DNA from: Tillus elongatus
Taxonomy: Eukaryota; Arthropoda; Insecta; Coleoptera; Cleridae
NCBI GenBank assembly: GCA_964006375.1
Contig: OZ023265.1
Coordinates: 15,731,252 to 15,795,251 of the forward strand
DNA length: 64,000 bases
Reading direction: 5' to 3'
The notes under the pieces are model-generated. The model worked only from the letters and a program-made list of their open reading frames with translations, searched no databases and had not been told where the DNA came from. Below are positions 4,757 through 62,109 of the stretch, one piece after another; position 1 is the stretch's first letter, and every line of letters begins with the position of its first letter. The position numbers were made by a program, and so were the translations under genes.

Positions 4757-5249
<493 letters not shown>

Positions 5250-6600: not shown

Positions 6601-6879
6601 ATTAAGAACAAACAACTATTTTGGTTCTCACTGTGTATGTACAGGCAAAAACCTTATTTATACTTTATTAATTTTTTATCAAGGTTCATAATACAACTTG
6701 TTACACTTGACTTTTTTATTGTTTTTTTCTTATTTCAACAACACACCACGAGGGTTTACAGCTTAAATACTATCGTACCGTGAGTGTCGACAAGAAGGAA
6801 AGAGGCAACTTGTTAATTCTGGACTTGAAGTAAGTACACTTGGAGAACACCCAAATCACCACAACACATATTTCAGAGA

Positions 6880-6920
6880 CCTTACGATCGTTTCGTTGAC
6901 AATGTCAACATCTTCAGAGG
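6880..6920 (-). ncRNA. Hammerhead-ribozyme-like motif, family 1 (left arm of 6831 element)
   Basis: Complement reads CCT, CTGAAGA, one extra T, stem II GTTGAC-ATT-GTCAAC, GAAAC, GATC, GTA, AGG. Stem I CCT/AGG closes the core. Stem III is only AC/GU with a GATC loop, and the cleavage triplet is GUA. Confidence 0.7.
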
Positions 6921-6936
6921 AATAAATTTTTTTCTT

Positions 6937-6977
6937 CCTCTGAAGATGTTGACATTGTCAACGAAACGATCGTAAGG
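6937..6977 (+). ncRNA. Hammerhead-ribozyme-like motif, family 1 (right arm of 6831 element)
   Basis: Same core as the left arm in opposite orientation: CTGAAGA at 6940-6946, stem II 6948-6953 with 6957-6962, GAAA at 6963-6966, cleavage predicted after A6974. A transcript of either strand would contain one sense motif. Confidence 0.7.
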
Positions 6978-8399
6978 TCCCTGAAATATGTGTTGTGGTG
7001 ATTTGGGTGTTCTTCAAGTGTACTTATTAGTGCTCATCACAGGTTCCAGTTTTCACATTCTGGACTTGAAGGTTTGGAGGTTCGGGGGAGAATGAAAAAC
7101 ATGTGCCGGCAAGGAATTCCACAACTTGGAAGCCCTCGGGACAAAAGAGCGGGCATGACAAGATGTTCTATGTCTGGTTACCTGGACAATAAAAGGGTGC
7201 ATTCGCTCTGTTCCCCTGGTAGATCTGTTGGAGGCAGCAGGTGGAGGAACTATGGAAGAAAGCTCCTGTGAACAGAGCCCGTGCAGATATCTATAAAAGA
7301 GAGAGAGGTAACCAACGGCACGTCAGTGGGCAAGGGATGACAGCCTTTGGGCGAGGGCAGGCTCACCGATGAGACGTATAGCTCTCTTCTGAATGGACTC
7401 CAGGATAGCGAGTGTAGAAGCGGCAGCGGCACCCCAGATGTGGGAGCAGTATTCGAGGTTTGGTCTTATTTGTGAAGTATATAAGGTATAGAGATTAGCT
7501 GGTGAAAAGTATTTGCGAGCCCGGAAGAGGAAACCTAATTTCTTAGCAGCCGCTTCTGCAATTAATGTGAGATGTTGGTACCAATTGAGATTACGATCCA
7601 CAGAAATGCCAACAAGTGAAAAGGACTCATTACTTTGAATAACTTGGTTGTTCATTGTGATATGTCTAGGGTTGGTGTATCTCTTATGAGAAAGAAAGCA
7701 AGACTCTGGTTTGGTGGGGTTGAACTGTACAAGATTTCTACCTCCCCAGTCTAATATTTGTTGAAGATACACGGAGAAAGAACTCTCCATGAGTCTGCGA
7801 TCCTCATCTAATTGGGCTAAAGAGACAGGCTTAGAATATTGTATATTTGAGTGGAGGGTGCTGTCGTTCGCCTAACTGTGAACTGGGTTGGATGTGCTAA
7901 AGAGGAGGTCATTGATGTGGAGAAGAAACAAAGTGGGGGCTAAAGCTGAACCTTGAGGAATTCCTGCATTCATTGGATACAGTTTAGAGGAATGGCCATC
8001 TACGACAACAGAATTGCTCCGGTTGGAGAAGAAATTTACTGTCCAGGTACAGAGTTTTGGTGGTAGGCCATAGGCCTGAAGTTTATTAAACAGCGCTGCG
8101 TGCCAGACCTGGTCGAATGATTTGGATATGTCTATAGCGACAATCTGGGATTCACCGTGTGGTTCCATAAACTTGTTACAAGAATGGGTGACAAAGGAAA
8201 GGAGGTCGGCAGTTGATCTGCGCTGACGGAATCCATATTGCCTGTCGTGGATTAGACTGTGTTTTTCAAGAAATTTTTGTAATTCGGTGTCCATATACTT
8301 TTCCATCACTTTAGAGACGACTGAAATGAGAGAAATAGGCCTGTAGTTGCTAGGAAGCGCTTTGGGTCGGTTTACATTTTTAGGACAGCAGACATATGT

Positions 8400-8739
8400 G
8401 TTGAGATCGCGACCCTGTATTACATCTCACAATGTTCTAGAAGACTGGCTACCAAAGCCGTATTACTGTATAGGTGTATTCTCGCTGTAATTAGTAGTAC
8501 CGTACTGATGAGCTCTAATTAGAGCGAACCGGTCTTATGGTGAGAATACATCTAGCCTTACATACATTGTCCCTATATTAGGGAAGAATTGGGCCAGGGC
8601 TGACAATATACAAAATTGTTAGTTGGTTACATACAGTCTCATATTTATAACATTTTATGTTATTTGGAGCTGCCGTGACAACATACCACCTGGTTCCGCA
8701 CCGAGATGGCGACCCTGTCGTACACCTCACAATGTTTTA
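8400..8739 (+). repeat. Family-3 hammerhead repeat, copy 3 (most complete)
   Basis: A whole unit runs from TGTTCTAGAAGACTGG (8432) to GTACACCTCACA, preceded at 8400-8430 by the end of another unit (GACCCTGTATTACATCTCAC). This means tandem units. It contains a ribozyme motif at 8495-8545, the shared block CCTTACATACATTGTCCCTA and the end block GAGATGGCGACCCTGTCGTA. There is no coding capacity. Confidence 0.75.
8495..8545 (+). ncRNA. Hammerhead-ribozyme-like motif, family 3 copy 3
   Basis: CTGATGA at 8505-8511 is canonical. Stem II GCTCT (8512-8516) pairs with AGAGC (8521-8525) over loop AATT. GAA is followed by CCGG and the triplet GTC (8532-8534). One A of GAAA is missing. Stem I CCGTA can pair with TATGG (one G-U) if one U is bulged. 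Across the three copies a canonical base is present at each core position. Confidence 0.65.
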
Positions 8740-13002: not shown

Positions 13003-13355
13003 AAGTACACTTGGAGAAACCGAAATCACCACAACACATTTTAAAAAGACCTGACGATCGTTTCACTAACCAAGTTAGCGTCATCAGAGGATGAAAAATT
13101 CTAACTATTTTAAAAACTAACATCACCTTATATACCGGATCTTAGGTAAAGGGACCGAACTGAAATGGGAAAATAAACGCAGGCAAATTCTGCAGTGTAT
13201 TGTATTTTTATCGCGGGACGAGGTCTGCACTGTCCCTACTAACTTATTTTAGATAAGTTAGTAGGGACAGTGCAGACCTCGTTCCGATCGTCAGATCTTT
13301 TTAAAATGTGTTGTGGTGATTTGGGTTTCTCCAAGTGTACTTGTCAGTGCTCATC
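13003..13355 (+). mobile_element. Family-1 hammerhead foldback element, diverged copy
   Basis: The left arm AAGTACACTTGGAGAAACC is inverted at the right (CCAAGTGTACTTGTC), followed by the family tail CAGTGCTCATCACAGGTTT. The inside holds a second perfect foldback (about 13213-13285: GGGACGAGGTCTGCACTGTC and its complement). No clear target duplication was found. Confidence 0.7.
13050..13090 (-). ncRNA. Hammerhead-ribozyme-like motif, family 1, canonical core with GUC triplet
   Basis: Complement reads CCT, CTGATGA, extra C, stem II GCTAAC-TTG-GTTAGT, GAAAC, GATC, GTC, AGG. CUGAUGA, GAAA and the GUC triplet are all canonical. The stem II bases differ from the other copies but stay complementary (covariation). 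Outer stem I ATTTT/AAAAT also pairs. Confidence 0.8.
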
Positions 13356-13356
13356 A

Positions 13357-13541
13357 CAGGTTTCAATATCTCAAAAAATAACAAAGTTATTTTGGTGAAA
13401 TTTCGTCAGTATGTTGCCCTTGTAACTCCACCACATACAAAAGCTCAACCATCTAGGTTTATAGAAAACTGAGTTATGCAAATTTCAAACAGTTAATGAA
13501 AATTCGCTACCGTAACGCACTTGCTGCGTTCCCAATTTTTT
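13357..13541 (+). repeat. TA-core repeat, 3' fragment
   Basis: Internal block (ATCTCAAAAAATAACAAAGT; TCTAGGTTTATAGAAAACTG) ends in the hairpin ACGCACTTGCTGCGTTCCCA before a T run. Confidence 0.75.
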
Positions 13542-22725: not shown

Positions 22726-23753
<1,028 letters not shown>

Positions 23754-24245
23754 AGTCTGGACGCAGCAAGTGCGTTATGGTAGTGAATTTTCATAAGCAT
23801 GTTTTAAATAGTAAATATATGCCTATAGGTCTTAAAATAAAAAAGTCTGGACGCAGCAAGTGCGTTATGGTAGTGAATTTTCATAAGCATGTTTTAAATA
23901 GTAAATATATGCCTATAGGTCTTAAAATAAAAAAGTCTGGACGCAGCAAGTGCGTTATGGTAGTGAATTTTCATAAGCATGTTTTAAATAGTAAATATAT
24001 GCCTATAAGTCCTAAAATAAAAAAGTCTGGACGCAGCAAGTGCGTTATGGCAGTGAATTTTCATAAGCATGTTTTAAATAGTAAATATATGCCTATAGGT
24101 CTTAAAATAAAAAAGTCTGGACGCAGCAAGTGCGTTATGGTAGTGAATTTTCATAAGCATGTTTTAAATAGTAAATATATGCCTATAGGTCTTAAAATAA
24201 AAAAGTCTGGACGTAGCAAGTGCGTTATGGTAGTGAATTTTCATC
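23754..24245 (-). repeat. Tandem array of the TA-core terminus, 90-bp period
   Basis: The block GGACGCAGCAAGTGCGTTAT is repeated with ACGCAGC at 23761, 23851, 23941, 24031 and 24121, and ACGTAGC at 24211: five whole 90-bp units and a sixth partial one. The units are nearly identical (a few changes in unit 3/4). As 90 is divisible by three, one frame stays open (23777-24331), so that 184-residue frame is an artefact. Confidence 0.95.
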
Positions 24246-24803: not shown

Positions 24804-24817
24804 ATAGCTACTATTAA

Positions 24818-24991
24818 TAAGTACACTTGAAGAACACCCAAATCACCACAACACATATTTCAGAGCCCTTACGATCGTTTCGTTGACACAGTCAACATCC
24901 TCAGAGGAAGAAAATTCTGAAATATGTGTTGTGGTGATTTGGGTGTCTCCAAGTGTACTTATTAGTGCTCATCACAGGTTCCAGTTTTCCC
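24818..24991 (+). mobile_element. Family-1 hammerhead foldback element, short copy with 14-bp target duplication
   Basis: Target duplication ATAGCTACTATTAA at 24804-24817 and 24992-25005. The left arm TAAGTACACTTGAAGAACAC is complete. The right arm keeps only TGAAATATGTGTTGTGGTGA through AAGTGTACTTA, then the tail TTAGTGCTCATCACAGGTTC. The right-arm ribozyme is deleted. Confidence 0.8.
24867..24907 (-). ncRNA. Hammerhead-ribozyme-like motif, family 1 (24818 element)
   Basis: Complement: CCT, CTGAGGA (N7 = G, allowed), extra T, stem II GTTGAC-TGT-GTCAAC, GAAAC, GATC, GTA, AGG. The loop differs from other copies while the paired and core bases are kept. Confidence 0.7.
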
Positions 24992-25005
24992 ATAGCTACT
25001 ATTAA

Positions 25006-32095: not shown

Positions 32096-32103
32096 TTTTC
32101 TTG

Positions 32104-32684
32104 ATAATTCCATAACACACCACGGGGGTCTACAGCCCAAATACTATCGTCCCGTGGGTGTCGACAAGGGGGAAAGAGGCAACTTGTTAATTCTGGACTT
32201 GAAGGTTTGGAGGTTCGGAGGAGAAGAGAAAACATGTGTCGGCAAGGAATTCCACAACTTGGAAGTCCCCGGCACATAATAGCGGGCATAACAAGATGTT
32301 CTATGTCTGGTGACCTGGAAAGTAAAAGGGTTCATTCGCTCTGTTCCCCTAGTAGATCTGCTGGGGGCAGCAGGTGGAGGAACTATGGAAGAAAACTCCT
32401 CTGAGCAGTGCCCGTGCAGAGCATCCATAAAAGATAGAGAGGTCACCAACGGCACGTCGGTGGACAAGGGATGGCAGCCTTTGGGTGAGGGTAGGGTCGC
32501 CGATTAGACGTATAGCTCTCTTCTGAATGGAGGATAGCGAGTGTAGAAGCGGCAGCGGCACCCCAGACGTGGAAGCAATATTCGAGGTTTGGCCTTATTT
32601 GTGAAGTATATAAGGTATATAGATTATCTGGTGAAAAGTATTTGCGAGCCCGGAAGAGGAAACCTAATTTCTTAGTAGCTGTGT
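32104..32684 (-). pseudogene. LINE B3a: 3' part of a LINE B copy
   Basis: Minus strand from the connection region (about 32684) through ESIQKRAIRLIG-type sequence and 32144-32467, which encodes RHRTSCYARYYVPGTSKLWN. It ends at the family 3' end near 32104. It faces B3b head-to-head with only a few bases between. Confidence 0.85.
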
Positions 32685-32689
32685 ACTAA

Positions 32690-33737
32690 ACTTCCGGAAT
32701 ATGGCCTGCAACAAAAACTCTGTACCTGAACAGCAAATTTCCTCTCCAACCGGAGCATTTCTGTTGTCGTGGATGAAAATTCCTCTAAACTGTACCCAAT
32801 TAATGCAGGAGTCTCTCAAGGTTCCTATTTTGTTTCTTGTCTACATCAATGACCTCCTCTCTAGCACATCCAACCCAGTTCACAGTTGCGCTGACAACAG
32901 AACCCTCCAATTAAATATAAAACACTCTAAGCCTGTCTCTTTAGCCCAATTAGATGAGGATCGCAGATTCATGGAGGGTTCTGTCTCTGTGGATCTCCAA
33001 AAAATATTAGGCTGGGCAAGTCGAAATCGTGTACAATTCAACTCCACCAAAGCTCAGTCTTGCTTTCTATCTTATAAGAGATACACCAGTCCTAGAGCCA
33101 TCACAAGTAACAACCAAGTTATTCAAAGTAATGAATCCTTTTCACTTGTTGGCATTTCTGTGGATCGAAATCTCAATTGGAACCGACATGTCACATCAAT
33201 TTCAGAAGCGGCTGCTAAGAAATTAGGTTTCTTCTTCCGGGCTCGCAAATACATTTCACCAGATAATCTGTATACCTTATATACTTCACAAATAGGGCCA
33301 AACCTTGAATACTGCTCCCACATCTGGGGTGTCGCTGTCGCTTCTACACTCGCTATCCTGGACTCCATTCAGAAGACAGCTATACGTCTTATCGGTGGCC
33401 CTACCCTCACCCAAAGGCTGCCATCCCTCGCTCACCGACGTACCGTTAGTGACCTTCTCTCTCTTTTATAGATATCTGCACGGGCACTGCTCAGAGGAGT
33501 TTTCTTCCATAGTTCCTCCACCTGTTGCCCCCGGCATATCTACTAGGAGAACAGAGCGAATGCACCCTTTTACTGTCCAGGTCACCAGACATAGAACATC
33601 TTGTTATGCTCGCTCTTTTGTTCCGAGGACTTTAAAGTTGTGAAACTCCTTGCCGGCACATGTTTTTCCTTGTTGTCCCACCCACGGTAAGATAGTATTT
33701 AGGTTGTGAGCCCTCGTGGTGTGTTGTTGAATTAAAT
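32690..33737 (+). pseudogene. LINE B3b: 5'-truncated LINE B copy
   Basis: A 256-codon open frame (32701-33471) covers the RT palm end and thumb: LSSTSNPVHSCADNRTLQLN (YADD changed to CADN, so catalytically dead), LVGISVDRNLNW, and NLEYCSHIWG. After a stop the C-terminal part continues to about 33643, and the family 3' end is near 33737 (GTGTTGTTGAATTAAATAAA). Confidence 0.88.
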
Positions 33738-34985: not shown

Positions 34986-36345
<1,360 letters not shown>

Positions 36346-41559: not shown

Positions 41560-44284
<2,725 letters not shown>

Positions 44285-44425
44285 TATATAAACGTATAAA
44301 AATTTAAACGGACCTTGGTTTTAGATTCTAGGTACCCAAATTCGTGCTCACCTGAAGAAATTTGTTCAAAACATTTTCATCGTGACCTCTCTATTAGATA
44401 ATTTTTCTTAATGAAACTTCGCTTA
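44285..44425 (-). repeat. TA-core repeat, leader part after D3
   Basis: TATAAACGTATAAAAATTTA then ACGGACCTTGGTTTTAGATT is a diverged reverse leader. It ends in a decayed hairpin (AGATAATTTTTCTTAATG). It is repeated at 45646-45786 by the duplication. Confidence 0.65.
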
Positions 44426-45002
44426 CATAAACATTAGTACCAAACTTCGTAATTTTTGGAGATACAGAAATTTTCAGAAAGAAAAACGAAAACTAGTCCG
44501 CTTCGCCCCGTCCAATTTCATCACAATCGGCTACGTATATTTTTAGCTATTAAGTGGGAACTTTTTACAACAAAAAATCCCGTTATTATAAACGGTTTCT
44601 TCGTTGCGAAATCATTGTATAGCTAGAATGTTGTAATCTAGCATTAAAAAAAATCCCCAGAAAGTTCTTTATGCGACGCCTATGGATATGTTACGCTTAT
44701 ACGTTTTGAAGGAGACGTTATATAAGTTTCCATCTCCTAGCTAATCTTTCTGCAGTATCCGCTTGATTTCCTGGCTCGTGTCAGATTATGTTCGTCCTCA
44801 CTTGGTTTGTTTCATTGCTGATGATTACCAGTATGTAATAAAACCTCATGAGGGGTGTTTTTGTTTGACAACATAATCAGGAACACTTTACCGAGCTGGG
44901 ATGTCAACTTTTATACCGGCACGAAACAGGTGTAAAATATGTGCTTGAAAATAAAGCACAACGCAGTCAATTTAATTCGCTTGGAATTTTCACCCCACTT
45001 AA

Positions 45003-45135
45003 TTTTAGTGAATTTTCGTAGAAAAAATTCACCAATGGGGAGATCCCGACTTTTGAATTTTGAAAAAAATTTTGCAAATGAGCGCGAACTAGGACCCCTA
45101 GAACTCATATCCGGGGTCAGTTTCAATTTTTATAT

Positions 45136-45223
<88 letters not shown>

Positions 45224-45543
45224 CACACCGATAACTCAAAAAATAATGGGCCGATTTTGATAAAATTTGGGACGTAGGTTTCTTTTGTAAATAGCTTGGA
45301 TAAGTTCGTTAGTCAGGAAAATCTAAGGAGGTTTTCCGGGAAGTTTTCATTTGAGAAAAGTTCTTATCTCAAAAAGTAATAAGCCGATTTTAATAAAATT
45401 TGGCATGTACCTTTCTTTTGTAAATGGCTTGGATAAGTTCATTAGTCAGGAAAATCGGCCGAGGTTTTCCGGGAAAATTTTGAGTTTTCATTCGAAAAAA
45501 ATTCTTATCTCAAAAAGTAATAAGCCGATTTTAATAAAATTTG
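45003..45543 (+). repeat. TA-core repeat, forward copy truncated at duplication junction
   Basis: Leader hairpin (AGTGAATTTTCGTAG), leader, (TA)n at 45139-45220, and two internal units. It is cut at AAAATTTGG where unit 2 of the duplication starts. Confidence 0.85.
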
Positions 45544-46363
45544 GAACGAACATGAAGTTCTTCAAAACATTGCTAATTTAACCGTCTCCCTATTTCTAAT
45601 AATAACGGAGATAGAAATACATTCCCATCCCAGTGAAACACACTGTATATAAACGTATAAAAATTTAAACGGACCTTGGTTTTAGATTCTAGGTACCCAA
45701 ATTCGTGCTCACCTGAAGAAATTTGTTCAAAACATTTTCATCGTGACCTCTCTATTAGATAATTTTTCTTAATGAAACTTCGCTTACATAAACATTAGTA
45801 CCAAACTTCGTAATTTTTGGAGATACAGAAATTTTCAGAAAGAAAAACGAAAACTAGTCCGCTTCGCCCCGTCCAATTTCATCACAATCGGCTACGTATA
45901 TTTTTAGCTATTAAGTGGGAACTTTTTACAACAAAAAATCCCGTTATTATAAACGGTTTCTTCGTTGCGAAATCATTGTATAGCTAGAATGTTGTAATCT
46001 AGCATTAAAAAAAATCCCCAGAAAGTTCTTTATGCGACGCCTATGGATATGTTACGCTTATACGTTTTGAAGGAGACGTTATATAAGTTTCCATCTCCTA
46101 GCTAATCTTTCTGCAGTATCCGCTTGATTTCCTGGCTCGTGTCAGATTATGTTCGTCCTCACTTGGTTTGTTTCATTGCTGATGATTACCAGTATGTAAT
46201 AAAACCTCATGAGGGGTGTTTTTGTTTGACAACATAATCAGGAACACTTTACCGAGCTGGGATGTCAACTTTTATACCGGCACGAAACAGGTGTAAAATA
46301 TGTGCTTGAAAATAAAGCACAACGCAGTCAATTTAATTCGCTTGGAATTTTCACCCCACTTAA

Positions 46364-47393
<1,030 letters not shown>

Positions 47394-47500: not shown

Positions 47501-47632
47501 TTTAGTGAATTTTCGTAGAAAAAATTCACTAATGAGGAGATCCCGACTTTTGAATTTTGAAAAAATTTTTGCCCTTGAGCGCGAACTAGGACCCCTAGAA
47601 CCCATACCCAGGGTCAGTTTCAATTTTTATAT

Positions 47633-47718
<86 letters not shown>

Positions 47719-48335
47719 CACACCGATAACTCAAAAAATAATGGGCCGATTTTGATAAAATTTGGGACGTAGGTTTCTTTTGTAAATAGCTTGGATAAGT
47801 TCGTTAGTCAGGAAAATCTAACGATGTTTTCCGGGAAATTTCTGAGTTTTCATTTGAGAAAAGTTCTTATCTCAAAAAGTAATAAGCCGATTTTAATAAA
47901 ATTTGGCATATACGTTCCTTTTGTAAATGGCTTTGACAAGTTTGTTAGTCAGGAAAATGGGACGAGGTTTTCCGGAAAAATGTTGAGTTTTCATTCGAAA
48001 AAAAAATTTTTCTCAAATAATAATGGGCAGATTTTGATAAAATTTGGCATGTACCTTCCTTTTGTAAATGGCTTTAATAAGTTTGTTAATCAAAAAAATT
48101 GGACGAGGTTTTCCGGAACAATTTTGAGTTTTAATTTGAAAAAAATTTTATCTTAAAAAATAAAAAAGCTATGATAACCAAATTTGGTAAGTAGGTTTAC
48201 GATATAAAAAGTAAACTATCCACTAAAATTTATATTTCTATGTTACAAGAAAAAAAAGTTATAATAAAATATTTTGAGCCAGATCATTTCTATAAAAATT
48301 CACTACCATAACGCACTTGCTGCGTCCAGGCTTTT
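47501..48335 (+). repeat. TA-core repeat, full-length forward copy
   Basis: Leader hairpin, leader, (TA)n at about 47636-47714, three internal units, and end hairpin ACGCACTTGCTGCGTCCAGG before TTTT. Confidence 0.9.
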
Positions 48336-53545: not shown

Positions 53546-55478
53546 TAATTCAACAACATACCACGAGGGCTCACATCCTAAATACTATCGTACCGTGGGT
53601 GTCGACAAGGAGGAAACAGGTATATGTCTCTTCTGAATGGAGTCTAGGATAGCGAGTGTAGAAGCGGCAGCGGCACCCCAGATATGGGAGCAGTATTCGC
53701 GGTTTGGCCTTATTTATGAAGTATATAAGGTATAGAGATTAGCCGGTAAAAAGTATTTGGGAGCCCGGAAGAGGAAACCTAATTTCTTAGCAGCCGCTTC
53801 TGCAATTGATGTAGCATGTTGGTGCCAATTGATATTTCGATCCACAGAAATGCCACCAAGTGAAAAGGACTCATTACTTTGAATAACTTGGTTGTTCATT
53901 GTGATGGGTCTAGGGCTGGTGTATCTCTCATGAGATAGAAAGCAAGACTGAGATTTGGTGGAGTTAAATTGTACAAGATTTCTACTTCCCCAATCTAATA
54001 TTTTTTTGGAGATTCACAAAGACAGAACCTTCCATTAGTCTGCGATCCTCATCTAATTGGGTTTAAGAGGCAAGCTTAGAATATTGTATATTTGAGTGGA
54101 AGGTGCTGTCGTCCGCGTAACTGTGAACTGGGTTGGATGTGTTAGAGAGGAGGTCTTTGATATGGATAAGAAACAAAGTAGCGGCTAAAGCGGAACCTTG
54201 TGGGACTCCTGCATCAACTGGATACAGTTTAGAGGAATGGCCATCCACGACAACAGAAATGCTCCGGTTTGAAAGGAAATTTGTGTCCAGGTACAGAGTT
54301 TTGGTGGTAGGTCAGATGCTGGAAGTTTATTAAGCAGCGCTGCGTGCCAGACCTGGTCGAATGCTTTGGATATGTCAAGAGAGGCAATCTGGGATTCACC
54401 GTGTAGTTCCATAGACTTGTTCCAAGAATGGATGACAAAGAAAAGGAGGTAGGCAGTTGATCTGGGCTGATGGAATCCATATTGCCTGTCGTGGATTAGA
54501 CTGCGTTTTTCGAGAAATTTTAGTAATTTGGTGTTTATATACGTTTCCATCACTTTAGAGGCGACTGAAAGGAGAAAAATAGGCCTGTAGTTGCTAGGAA
54601 GCGCTTTGGATTCTTTCTTGGGGACGGGTTGCACTCGAGCAATTTTCCAGTTACTAGGGAATATGCCTCTATTGTAAGATGTCTGAAACAGACGAGTCAA
54701 GACAGGAGCAAGTTCTGCTGCGCATTTTTTTAGAACAATTCCTGGGATCAAGTCAAGGCCAAAGGCTTTCCTGGTATTAAGGGAACAGAGCATCTTTCGT
54801 ACCTTTTTAGTTTTGAAAATGATATCCGTCATTTTATGAGCGAACATTGGGGACTGTTGGTGGCTGAACATTTGGAGGTGGGTTGAGAGTAGAATTTCTG
54901 ACGAAAAACGAGGCAAAAAGTTCATTATTGCCCAGGACGGTAGAAACAATTTCATCCCCTGAACGTACTCTTGCAGAAATTATTCCCAATAGAGTCCAGA
55001 AGGGTTTGTTGCCGTTGCAGCTTGAGAGGACTTTATTTTTGATGTGATTATTAAACGAGTTTTTCTCCTAAGAAAGAATGCGGAAATAGCGGTTTCTTGC
55101 GTCGTTAAATGTTTGACTGGGATTGTGTAGAAGCATTTTGTAAGCTCTGTCCTTTTTAAGTCTGGCCTTGTCACAGGATTTAGAGAACCAGAGCTTTTGA
55201 GTGCCTGAAGAGGTTTTCTATGTACGTGGAATAAATAATTCCATGCCAGCTTGGATAATTTCGGTGACGTTTTGTGAGATATCAGAGGGGTCAGGATGAG
55301 GGAAGCAGACAGACACCCGTGAAAATGAGGATAAGTAATCCCGCATTTCGTCCCAGTTCGCGGAGTTGTAGTGCCAAACGATACGTGGGTGTGATGACTG
55401 TGTGACCTCAGGTTGCATTGCGCAAGAAGCAGTGACAATGCCGTGGTCTGAGCGACCAAGGGGGGCAGTGACTGATAT

Positions 55479-58756: not shown

Positions 58757-60092
58757 TTATAATATTTATTTGCCATCGAGAAATTACATGGTGTGTCAGG
58801 TAAATAATATGTATACACATAAACACAGATGGTCAAATAGATAAAATACAATAGTTGTAAAGAACACCACAGAAACAATAGGAACAAACAACAAACAAAT
58901 CAATCCATGTACCAAATATATAGAAAACTAAACAACAGAAACTACACTTAAAGTCCCTAAGGAGCTGTTTTGATGCCTCTTACCAACCAGTCTCAAAATA
59001 CTCATCCACTGTATACAGTGTCGTCCGCAGCAGAAGTCTCTTAACCTCTCTGGCAAATTGTGATTCAGGCATTTCCCTCAAATTACTTGGCAGTCTGTTA
59101 TACAGCTTCAAACCCAGATAATTTGCACCCAATTGCGTTCTAGCCAGTCTGTGATATGGTATGCTAAAGTTGGCCTTCTTTATGGTATCATATGTATGTA
59201 ATTGTTCATTGGCTAGAAATAAGTCCTTATTTTGATGAACATATTTTAAGCAGACAAAAATGAATACCGATACTATGGTAAGTATACGCTCGCGCTCGAA
59301 CAACCCACGGCAGCTAGTCTTCCAAGACACGTCGCACAAGACACGTAGGGCTTCTTTCTGCTTCAGGAGCACTTGCTGCAAGCCTGGACTGCACCCCCAC
59401 AAAAGCACACCATAACCAGCGACAGGGTGAAAGTTGGAAAAATATGCCATCTTGCAGGCCTCCCGGCCCACCACAGCTTTCATTCGCCGCATTGTAAAAA
59501 TAGCCGTAGACAACCTTCCAAGCAGGGACGAGACATGAGCAGACCAGGCAAGGCCATCCTCCAGAATTACACCAAGAAGCTTTAACCTCGCCCCGCCGCT
59601 GTGTCCCGCACCCAGCACCAGTCGTTGTGTCTTATTTAAGTTTAATTTTAGAGAGTTTACTCTAAACCACTCATCTGCTTGGTCAAGGCAAGTCCTTGTA
59701 CGGAGGCCCAGATTAATCGCCGCTGTTGCTCTGTTAACAAAGCTGGTGTCATCGGCATAAAGCCCGATCGCATCCGATGCAATGTTGGCCGGCAGATCAT
59801 TCGTATAGATGATAAAGAGTATGGGGCCCAAAATGGAACCCTGCGGAACACCACAATCTACTGTCATCTCATCGGATAGCTGTTTATCCCAATACACAAC
59901 CTGCCTCCTATCCTCCAGGTAAGACCCAAAGAGGGAGAGGGCTGTACCTCTGACACCATAATGTTCCAGCTTCCCCAACAAAATACACTTTGAAACTGTA
60001 TCAAAGGCCTTACTCAGATCACAAGCTACGACTTCAACATGATTTTTTTCATAGAGTCCCTCGGCAATACTCATAACAATTTCGGTCAAGAA
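58757..60092 (-). mobile_element. LINE C insertion, 5'-truncated
   Basis: From the truncated RT (60089) through the stop at 58980 to a 3' untranslated region with AATAAA (complement of 58765-58770). It lies within the TA-core internal block; the two flanks rejoin as GCTTTGAGA with AAGACC. The target duplication is at most a few bases (AGAA-like). Confidence 0.8.
58980..60089 (-). CDS. LINE C reverse transcriptase, partial but open (369 codons)
   Basis: Longest real coding frame in the window. The start is given by the truncation, not a native start. Motifs: [20 protein letters not shown] (first Asp of the RT palm), [34 protein letters not shown] (YADD intact), [15 protein letters not shown], and [20 protein letters not shown], with [13 protein letters not shown] in the C-terminal half. 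It ends normally at the stop before the 3' untranslated region. Related RT sequences occur in Jockey-type and CR1-type LINEs. The endonuclease and RT N-terminus are missing, so it is not autonomous. The uninterrupted frame suggests a recent insertion. Confidence 0.88.
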
Positions 60093-60175
60093 GAAAGACC
60101 TAATTATGTGCCAAAATTCAGATTTCTAGGTTTACAGAAAATTGAGCTATTAAAATTTGAAACATTTATGTTTAA

Positions 60176-60499: not shown

Positions 60500-60558
60500 T
60501 TCTCTCTGATAAGTACACTTGGAGAACACCCAAATCACCACAACACATATTTCAGAGA

Positions 60559-60599
60559 CCTTACGATCGTTTCGTTGACCAAGTCAACATCTTCAGAGG
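60559..60599 (-). ncRNA. Hammerhead-ribozyme-like motif, family 1 (left arm of palindrome)
   Basis: Complement: CCT, CTGAAGA, extra T, stem II GTTGAC-TTG-GTCAAC, GAAAC, GATC, GTA, AGG. The outer stem I word ATTTT can pair with GAAAT across an internal loop, as in type I hammerheads of Penelope-like elements. Confidence 0.75.
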
Positions 60600-61927
60600 A
60601 AGAAAAATTCTAACATAAAAAACTAGATCCCGTATATTTATATCGCGTCAAAGAAAACGAACTAGTCCGAAGGAAAGTTGTCGTACAAGAACGATCGTTA
60701 GTTTATTGCGCAGTGAAACAGGTCGGAGACCTGCTTTAATCTTTTGGTCGACAAATTTATGACCCTTATCTAATATAGGTTTAAAAAGGACCGGCGTTTT
60801 TTAAAGAGACAGCACGTTTCCTTTCGATCTAGAACTTTACAATGTGGATATTGGTTTATGCCGATAAAGACATCTGCTGAGATAAACAACATAAACTCAA
60901 ATCATCTCTTTTAAAAATAGAAAACTAAAACCCAGATGTCTGTCTCACCGTGTTAACTTTAACAAAGGAAAAATAGTTCAACTAAAATACTACACAAAAA
61001 CTAAATATTGATTTTAATTCTACGTGAAAATATTTATATTGACTACATAGATACAAAAACCGAATAGGTATTTAAATTAAGACAAACATAGTGATTAGTA
61101 TATGTATAAACCGGTCGAGTTATTGACCATAATTTATTATTCTACCAGACTAATTATGAGTATTTAAGCGGTCAAATGCAAAGAGCAAACAATGGGCTAG
61201 AGATTACAGGTGGCGCACGATTTAATGAAGTTTTGTTCTTAATAGACCTTAATATAAGGTCTATATAAGGTCTATTAAGGTCTATTAAGAACAAAACTTC
61301 ATTAAATCGTGCGCCACCTGTAATCTCTAGCCCATTGTTTGCTCTTTGCATTTGACCGCTTAAATACTCATAATTAGTCTGGTAGAATAATAAATTATGG
61401 TCAATAACTCGACCGGTTTATACATATACTAATCACTATGTTTGTCTTAATTTAAATACCTATTCGGTTTTTGTATCTATGTAGTCAATATAAATATTTT
61501 CACGTAGAATTAAAATCAATATTTAGTTTTTGTGTAGTATTTTAGTTGAACTATTTTTCCTTTGTTAAAGTTAACACGGTGAGACAGACATCTGGGTTTT
61601 AGTTTTCTATTTTTAAAAGAGATGATTTGAGTTTATGTTGTTTATCTCAGCAGATGTCTTTATCGGCATAAACCAATATCCACATTGTAAAGTTCTAGAT
61701 CGAAAGGAAACGTGCTGTCTCTTTAAAGAACGCCGGTCCTTTTTAAACCTATATTAGATAAGGGTCATAAATTTGTCGACCAAAAGATTAAAGCAGGTCT
61801 CCGACCTGTTTCACTGCGCAATAAACTAACGATCGTTCTTGTACGACAACTTTCCTTCGGACTAGTTCGTTTTCTTTGACGCGATATAAATATACGGAAT
61901 CTAGTTTTTTATGTTAGAATTTTTCTT

Positions 61928-61968
61928 CCTCTGAAGATGTTGACTTGGTCAACGAAACGATCGTAAGG
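61928..61968 (+). ncRNA. Hammerhead-ribozyme-like motif, family 1 (right arm of palindrome)
   Basis: Identical in core to the left-arm motif, opposite strand. CTGAAGA at 61931-61937, stem II 61939-61944 with 61948-61953, GAAA at 61954-61957, cleavage predicted after A61965. Confidence 0.75.
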
Positions 61969-62109
61969 TCTCTGAAATATGTGTTGTGGTGATTTGGGTG
62001 TTCTCCAAGTGTACTTATTAGTGCTCATCACAGGTTCCAGTTTTCACATAGTGAATTCTCTCTGATGCTTTGGCGGTAGTTTTAGTTAAGTTTATGGTTT
62101 AACGGTCCA

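Follow-up and report, generated by a model that had tools for sequence, protein, structure and literature searches.

Among the systems described so far, Penelope-like elements (PLEs) come closest in layout to the insertions reported here, and a minimal type I hammerhead ribozyme within the pseudo-LTR (pLTR) counts as a mark of PLEs in the parts of the literature drawn on. The EN-containing Penelope retrotransposons of Adineta vaga (such as Pen2a_Av) have inverted pLTRs, mostly head to head, with an optional 31-bp tail on one of the two, target site duplications (TSDs) of 8-10 bp where these are present, and palindromes at the inverted junction, and their pLTR comprises the first 12 codons of the open reading frame (ORF), or 22 with the tail (PMC3846280, in part). 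For the Poseidon-type PLE of Anolis carolinensis, PAc, the purified protein, a predicted dimer, cuts both strands of the target and extends them, and reverse transcription begins at two start sites, the interval between which equals the tail (PMC11167929). Animal retrozymes have been reported from insects among others, and PLEs have been named as strong candidates for mobilising them (PMC7229834, in part).

Here, we describe four related insertions (E1-E4) in a 64,000-nt stretch of DNA from the beetle Tillus elongatus, which was analysed as a whole and is referred to as the window. These insertions are probably non-autonomous, coding-less PLE copies, in which two pLTRs stand head to head and a tail is found on one end only.

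A palindromic insertion with a one-sided tail

The stretch 60511-62055 is a nearly perfect palindrome (E4), with the same borders as in a preliminary description of this DNA, and consists of the following parts:

60500-60510, no strand: left TSD, 11 bp, TTCTCTCTGAT
60511-61254, sense strand minus: left arm, a pLTR copy with its upstream sequence, tail-less
61255-61272, no strand: central spacer, 18 nt
61255-61289: 10-bp tandem repeat TAAGGTCTAT, 3.4 copies, within the spacer and the right arm
61273-62016, sense strand plus: right arm
about 62017-62055, plus strand: one-sided tail, 38-39 nt as counted by hand
62056-62066, no strand: right TSD, 11 bp, an exact copy of the left one

A repeat search delimited arms of 749 nt each (60506-61254 and 61273-62021) on either side of the 18-nt spacer, which are complementary at 746 of 749 positions when compared base by base (the mismatched pairs are 60508/62019, 60629/61898 and 60799/61728; blastn likewise gave three mismatches). 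When the target duplication is left out, the count for 60511-61254 becomes 742 complementary positions out of 744, that is, the arms differ at 2 of 744 positions overall and at 0 of 89 within the pLTR core. The word TTCTCTCTGAT occurs on the plus strand of the window once in each E4 flank and nowhere else. The tail has no counterpart at the left end, which reads (T)AAGTACACTT, and the two ends do not form a pair of inverted repeats. The inverted arms of about 750 bp, the perfect 11-bp duplication and the tail on one side alone, all of which the preliminary description had reported, are thereby upheld. At the centre of E4, a short hairpin is formed by AGACCTTA-ATA-TAAGGTCT, and the 10-bp repeat beside it looks like the product of polymerase slippage at the turn-round.

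Related insertions and their target sites

A blastn search with the right arm of E4 against the 64-kb window retrieved three further insertions:

6831-7057, plus strand: E1, with 98-bp arms (93 of 98 positions paired), a hammerhead in each arm and a tail on the right side; exact 14-bp TSD at 6817-6830 and 7058-7071
24818-24991, plus strand: E2, with a hammerhead-bearing left arm and a tail; exact 14-bp TSD at 24804-24817 and 24992-25005
13003-13365, plus strand: E3, an older insertion with 84-88% identity to E4 and a tail; outer borders approximate

The right arm of E2 begins about 5 nt past the predicted cut site of the ribozyme. In E3, the palindromic centre has 34 of 36 positions paired going outward from 13250, the hammerhead is confined to the left arm (13050-13090, minus strand), the right arm carries an internal deletion, and no clear TSD was recognised at the flanks. 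In all four copies the arms are inverted head to head, with the sense strand pointing outward from the centre, and a tail follows the right arm and only the right arm; it measures 31 nt in E1, 30 nt in E2 and 38-39 nt in E4 by hand count, its end being indistinct in E3. The TSDs are exact in three of the four copies and variable in length (14, 14 and 11 bp in E1, E2 and E4), and the palindrome centre sits at differing places in E1, E3 and E4.

When the flanks of E1 were joined, they matched across the junction at two places in the window, which represent two empty sites:

32096-32455: E1 empty site 1, 360 columns, 88.6%
12351-11996: E1 empty site 2, 362 columns, 87.0%

A single copy of the E1 duplication word, at 32191-32204, stops exactly at the position where E1 would be, and four other matches to the E1 flanks fail to cross the junction. 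The empty sites and the duplication together indicate that E1 and its tail moved together as one unit, via a staggered cut. For the joined flanks of E2 and E3 no junction-crossing match was found within the window, and those of E4 gave one weak match, which extends beyond the junction by 7 nt only. Exact-pattern scans for relatives returned 0 matches in viral contigs and 0 in prokaryote genome contigs, which is what one would expect of an animal element.

Long inverted arms and target duplications are also what a foldback DNA transposon or MITE with long terminal inverted repeats would show, in which case the hammerhead words would be incidental, and a duplication of 11 bp would suit some DNA transposons. 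This reading is scarcely credible for E1-E4, as the two termini are not a pair of inverted repeats, the tail is one-sided in each of the four copies, the TSD length is not fixed, and the centre moves among E1, E3 and E4.

Other repeats of the window

The window is rich in repeats of other kinds. A long (TA)n run with an adjoining tandem repeat of about 141 bp (133 bp in one case) is found five times, once in the opposite orientation, as an amplified microsatellite-satellite unit:

22892-23626, 35115-36173, 45131-45548, 46492-47226 and 47628-48163: (TA)n/141-bp modules

A 90-bp tandem repeat at 23751-24244 (5.5 copies, 98% alike) has eight further single relatives in the window among the 14 copies of a family labelled D8. 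Broken reverse transcriptase frames with Pfam RVT_1 matches lie at 1780-2523, 7872-8426, 54185-54979 and 58980-60125, and these four matches are taken for LINEs; further broken reverse transcriptase frames were seen at 7323-7871 and 32668-33471, and one repeat is present in copies near 7.4, 33 and 54 kb (89-93%). In a protein search with a neighbouring reverse transcriptase frame, the hits with a species name among the 120 listed of 7000 are six, at 36-46% identity, and come from three beetles, two sharpshooter leafhoppers and a butterfly. A Tc3-like transposase fragment was found at 43104-43622 (HTH_Tnp_Tc3_2, E 7e-5, under Pfam's own cut-off), and two stretches of 300 nt each, 44175-44474 and 45536-45835, are 100% identical and 1361 nt apart, owing to either a recent tandem duplication or a doubling in the assembly.

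The hammerhead cores

A core composed of CUGANGA, GAAA and UH words with three helices, as recognised by descriptor match, is present in six of the eight arms of the four copies, namely in both arms of E1 and E4 and in the left arms of E2 and E3, and is absent from the right arms of E2 and E3. In E4, the ordered hammerhead words stand exactly where the preliminary description had placed them:

60559-60599, minus strand: left-arm hammerhead core, predicted cut between 60562 and 60561
61928-61968, plus strand: right-arm hammerhead core, predicted cut 61965/61966

The descriptor (CTGANGA, 0-1 bulge, stem II, GAA, short stem III, H, stem I of at least 3 bp), which was composed after the copies had been seen, matched six times in the window, always within this family, and once across 300 dinucleotide-shuffled windows. 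A looser pattern gave six sites against 0.11 expected, of which five belong to the E1-E4 family and the sixth (4800-4832, minus strand) is unrelated; the divergent core of E3 was missed by it.

The catalytic words are unbroken in all six cores, while N7, the stem II loop and an extra base vary. Five cores have GUA as their cut-site triplet, E3 having GUC instead, and standard pairs fill all 52 counted alignment cells of the core. Within stem II, two pairs are changed on both sides (U-A to C-G and G-C to A-U) and one pair on one side; this covariation derives from a single divergent row, the left arm of E3, and in the control four of the five scores were reached by 20 of 500 shuffles and the fifth by 500 of 500, and no slid version reached them. 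As read from the aligned copies, the predicted core is thus shown to keep its pairing through base changes. The stem II loop ATT is common to both E1 arms and absent in E2 and E4.

Two features set these cores apart from the textbook hammerhead. Stem III has 2 bp only, which makes the motif a minimal variant, and an extra unpaired base lies between A9 and stem II in all six cores. This base is U in E1, E2 and E4 (61938 in the right arm of E4), where it is also the central base of an ATG located where stem II begins, and C in E3. The preliminary description took the unpaired base for a departure from the core, yet it is not a serious one, since the plus-strand hammerhead of CChMVd, a plant viroid unrelated in sequence to E1-E4, has the same one-base excess at the same place: its natural extra base, between A9 and G10.1, is an A, its replacement by U raised trans-cleavage 3-4-fold, and C or G was harmful (PMC3705267, in part).

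The preliminary description had proposed a comparison with the Rfam covariance models as one half of its refuting test, and on this half the result went against the ribozyme. At gathering score, Rfam had 0 matches in the whole window; with E up to 10, the segment 60450-62150 gave eight matches, none to a hammerhead and all below gathering (five microRNA models, one trpB motif and two SNORD87), and 61900-62000 gave one sub-threshold match, to the SAM_alpha riboswitch, and again no hammerhead. The microRNA-model matches sit on the palindrome centre, as a long hairpin would give. The silence of Rfam weighs against a textbook hammerhead and less against the minimal type; minimal variants with a 2-bp stem III and a bulge may fall outside the Rfam models.

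Folding and possible dimerisation of the ribozyme

The stem III strand ACGATCGT (61957-61964 in E4) is an 8-nt palindrome, identical in all six cores, so that two RNAs could share an 8-bp stem III, and the modelled folds allow that the ribozyme could act as a dimer. In the predicted best two-strand fold of E1 and E4, the stem II hairpin of each strand and an 8-bp stem III between the strands are formed and stem I is missing (-23.8 kcal/mol); the full double hammerhead reaches -21.8 kcal/mol, against -6.4 kcal/mol at best, or -3.5 as a hammerhead, for the single strand. The best two-strand folds of E2 and E3 differ from the stem III dimer (-25.1 and -35.8 versus -21.8 and -17.0). In all four copies tested, the lowest-energy single-strand fold differs from the hammerhead, and in E3 the competing fold is far stronger (-13.4 versus -1.1 kcal/mol). 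Together with the C at the extra position, this strong competing fold suggests that the ribozyme of E3 is probably dead. A paper by Lunse of 2017 has the words 'cleave RNA as dimers' in its title.

The motif may thus have been inherited as a dead relic from a PLE parent, with no cleavage in any of E1-E4, a reading which is otherwise compatible with PLE identity and which we hold to be conceivable, if on balance doubtful. It would account for the lack of a hammerhead match in Rfam, for the other structures favoured in single-strand folds and for E3, where an extra C that is harmful in the viroid hammerhead (PMC3705267, in part) meets the rival fold given above. It also agrees with the anole PLE, whose ribozyme mutants insert like the wild type and for which no cleaved ends turned up in RNA-seq (PMC11167929). 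Against a relic speak the catalytic words, which are intact in every one of the six cores despite variation at N7, in the stem II loop and at the extra base, the dimer fold, which ranks best in both E1 and E4, and the anole ribozyme, which did cleave once protein was added (PMC11167929).

Putative promoter, arm junctions and short open frames

The arms contain candidate signals for transcription upstream of the hammerhead and a short open frame downstream of it:

61885-61892, plus strand: TATA-box-like TATAAATA, putative promoter element
60635-60642: mirror copy of TATAAATA, predicted start 60611
61979-62062, plus strand: short open frame MCCGDLGVLQVYLLVLITGSSFHIVNSL, from the arm through the tail, 13 codons up to the arm end

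The predicted start A of E4 is 61916, 31 nt after TATAAATA, and belongs to a TTAGAATTTTTC that E3 shares; in E3, TATATAA stands 32 nt ahead of the A of this word. In the numbering of E4, the right arm of E1 starts at 61918-61920, which is also where the longer E2 arm stops (AGAATTTTC...). For the E1 arms and the longer E2 arm, the distance between arm end and predicted start A is no more than about 4 nt. The simplest reading of these sequences is that the predicted start A would be the 5' end of the RNA, with the turn-round taking place where the template ends; this start-site and promoter reading is post hoc, from sequence only, and draws on two junctions. E3 and E4 turn round farther upstream than the predicted start, as if made from read-through RNA. 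Homology between their upstream parts beyond the start region was not shown (local score 21, against a mean of 18.3 and a maximum of 26 in 200 shuffles), and these parts may be different captured flanks.

The open frame, which begins MCCGDLG..., spans arm to tail in E1 and E4, does so in E3 after a frameshift and is broken in E2. It could, on weak grounds, be the former start of an ORF; 25 open codons arise easily. The E4 arm has no stop-to-stop frame longer than 54 aa, and a Pfam search with eight short arm peptides found nothing significant (best E-value 0.3, below cut-off).

Comparison with Penelope-like elements and retrozymes

Several features that would be looked for in a PLE are found in this family: inverted head-to-head pLTRs and a 30-40-bp tail at one end in four of four copies, short and variable TSDs (14, 14 and 11 bp in E1, E2 and E4), and, by sequence, a minimal type I hammerhead in the pLTR (six cores in eight arms). 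As there is no coding frame in the arms and the anatomy is PLE-like, E1-E4 are filed as PLE derivatives without a coding body. A Penelope reverse transcriptase or GIY-YIG gene was not found in the 10 Pfam-scanned of the 14 window ORFs of at least 150 aa, nor in the eight arm peptides, which counts against the PLE reading; a non-autonomous copy would not carry such a gene.

With the A. vaga Penelope the insertions share inverted pLTRs, a one-sided tail, TSDs, junction palindromes and a frame that starts in the pLTR, whereas in the A. vaga copies described the pLTRs either enclose an RT-EN ORF or captured DNA or occur singly and lack a TSD (PMC3846280, in part); in E1-E4 the arms meet directly, are non-coding and come with TSDs. 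PAc has in common with them the minimal hammerhead at the ORF start and the tail interval, and its cut falls 26 bp past the start codon, as compared to 29 nt after the stem II ATG here (hand count); unlike E1-E4, which are inverted, non-coding and in three cases TSD-flanked, PAc forms direct tandem repeats with a full ORF (PMC11167929). The stem II ATG of E1, E2 and E4 runs into a stop at the cut site, in contrast to the full ORF of PAc. No coding-less inverted-pLTR family was found in print among open-licence papers, which is a weak indication that this layout is a new one.

The preliminary description had called E4 a non-autonomous hammerhead retroelement in inverted-dimer form. This is well supported and can be sharpened to a Penelope-type pair of head-to-head pLTRs, while the part of the description that invoked retrozymes is not borne out, given that the window holds no tandem copy and the hammerhead is the minimal variant. 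Animal retrozymes are non-autonomous elements of 170-400-nt units which spread as small circular RNAs via type I hammerheads, and, as non-LTR elements, they share with E1-E4 that they are non-coding hammerhead retroelements (PMC7229834, in part). A type I-like hammerhead, the absence of coding sequence, a low G+C content and duplications longer than 4 bp would all be in keeping with such an origin. It is nevertheless highly unlikely, as retrozymes consist of direct tandem units of 150-450 bp with mostly canonical hammerheads and yield small circRNAs (PMC7229834, in part), and here the window has 0 tandem copies, each strand of a copy carries at most one sense hammerhead, so that no unit could be excised at both ends, and stem III is reduced to 2 bp.

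Possible routes to a head-to-head palindrome

If E1-E4 are PLE copies, two routes to the palindrome have to be weighed, of which priming from both cut ends is put slightly ahead of self-priming as a tentative choice that falls just short of an even chance. In the two-ended route, the arm promoter (the TATA, with a start near 61916) would produce RNA outward through the hammerhead and the tail region, and a Penelope reverse transcriptase/GIY-YIG nuclease supplied in trans would cut both target strands with a stagger of 11-14 nt. Each 3' end would then prime a cDNA, with the two RNAs of a pair as the templates. The first cDNA would begin at the inner start site and give the tail-less left arm; the second would begin 30-39 nt beyond it, at the outer start site, and give the right arm with the tail. 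Both cDNAs would reach the 5' end of the RNA, where ends with short self-complementary or micro-homologous sequence could join, and copying of the strands on each other would leave a head-to-head palindrome between target duplications. The minimal PLE hammerhead would on this model cleave best as an RNA dimer, via the 8-nt self-complementary stem III strand ACGAUCGU.

Both the duplications and the presence of a tail on one side only would follow from two cDNAs, one per cut strand, which would also account for the unequal arms of E2. The route gains credibility from the anole enzyme, which cuts and extends both strands and uses two start sites with the tail as their interval (PMC11167929). At least one arm crosses the cut site in each of the four copies, which implies that the templates were uncleaved there and, by analogy, would agree with the normal insertion of the anole ribozyme mutants (PMC11167929). 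Two separate cDNAs leave unexplained the loop shared by the E1 arms and the agreement of the E4 arms, unless both RNAs came from one locus.

Self-priming would take place within the same PLE family: one cDNA folds back on reaching the 5' end of the RNA and serves as its own template. It has been published for rotifer Penelope elements, where it was argued for an antisense template (PMC3846280, in part). For the present copies it is possible, at less than even odds, and slightly the less favoured of the two routes. The arms of E4, with 2 of 744 differences and 0 of 89 in the pLTR core, speak for it, and a single self-primed cDNA would explain their 742/744 agreement at least as well as two would. 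The stem II loop ATT common to both E1 arms and absent in E2 and E4, the central hairpins (AGACCTTA-ATA-TAAGGTCT in E4; in E3, pairing at 34 of 36 positions) and the 10-bp repeat on just one side of the E4 centre, which resembles slippage at a restart, point the same way. However, if a target-attached cDNA copied itself back, the copying should continue through the tail and on into target DNA, so that the second arm would contain both, and the left arm is tail-less in all four copies. In addition, the left arm of E1 shows 2/89 differences from the left arm of E4 and 2/90 from its own partner; as it is no closer to its partner than to E4, the shared descent of the E1 arms rests on the loop alone. 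E3 keeps a palindromic centre with one arm lacking an inner piece, which points to a deletion rather than to unequal cDNAs, and the asymmetry of E2 fits either two-ended priming or self-priming.

Implications

A further, more far-reaching reading, which we regard as unlikely, is that E1-E4 belong to a self-standing family of coding-less 'mirror' retroposons, whose RNA pairs with itself through the palindromic hammerhead stem III and a self-complementary 5' head, so that two RNAs enter each Penelope particle, priming starts on both cut strands simultaneously, and new insertions are normally head-to-head palindromes from the outset. If this were true, the ribozyme would be a device for RNA dimerisation, instead of or besides a cutter, the promoter-bearing copies that reach upstream of the start (E3 and E4) would be masters, and the copies that begin at the start (E1 and E2) would be dead on arrival. 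The route by which PLEs give rise to inverted copies with a one-ended tail, and the role of the minimal hammerhead, are described as open in the literature (PMC11167929; PMC3846280, in part). With four bare inverted pairs, three clean TSDs, one of them with empty sites, and junctions that can be read base by base, this small non-coding family offers a simple test substrate, and E1-E4 could serve to compare two-ended priming with self-priming, and ribozyme dimers with monomers.
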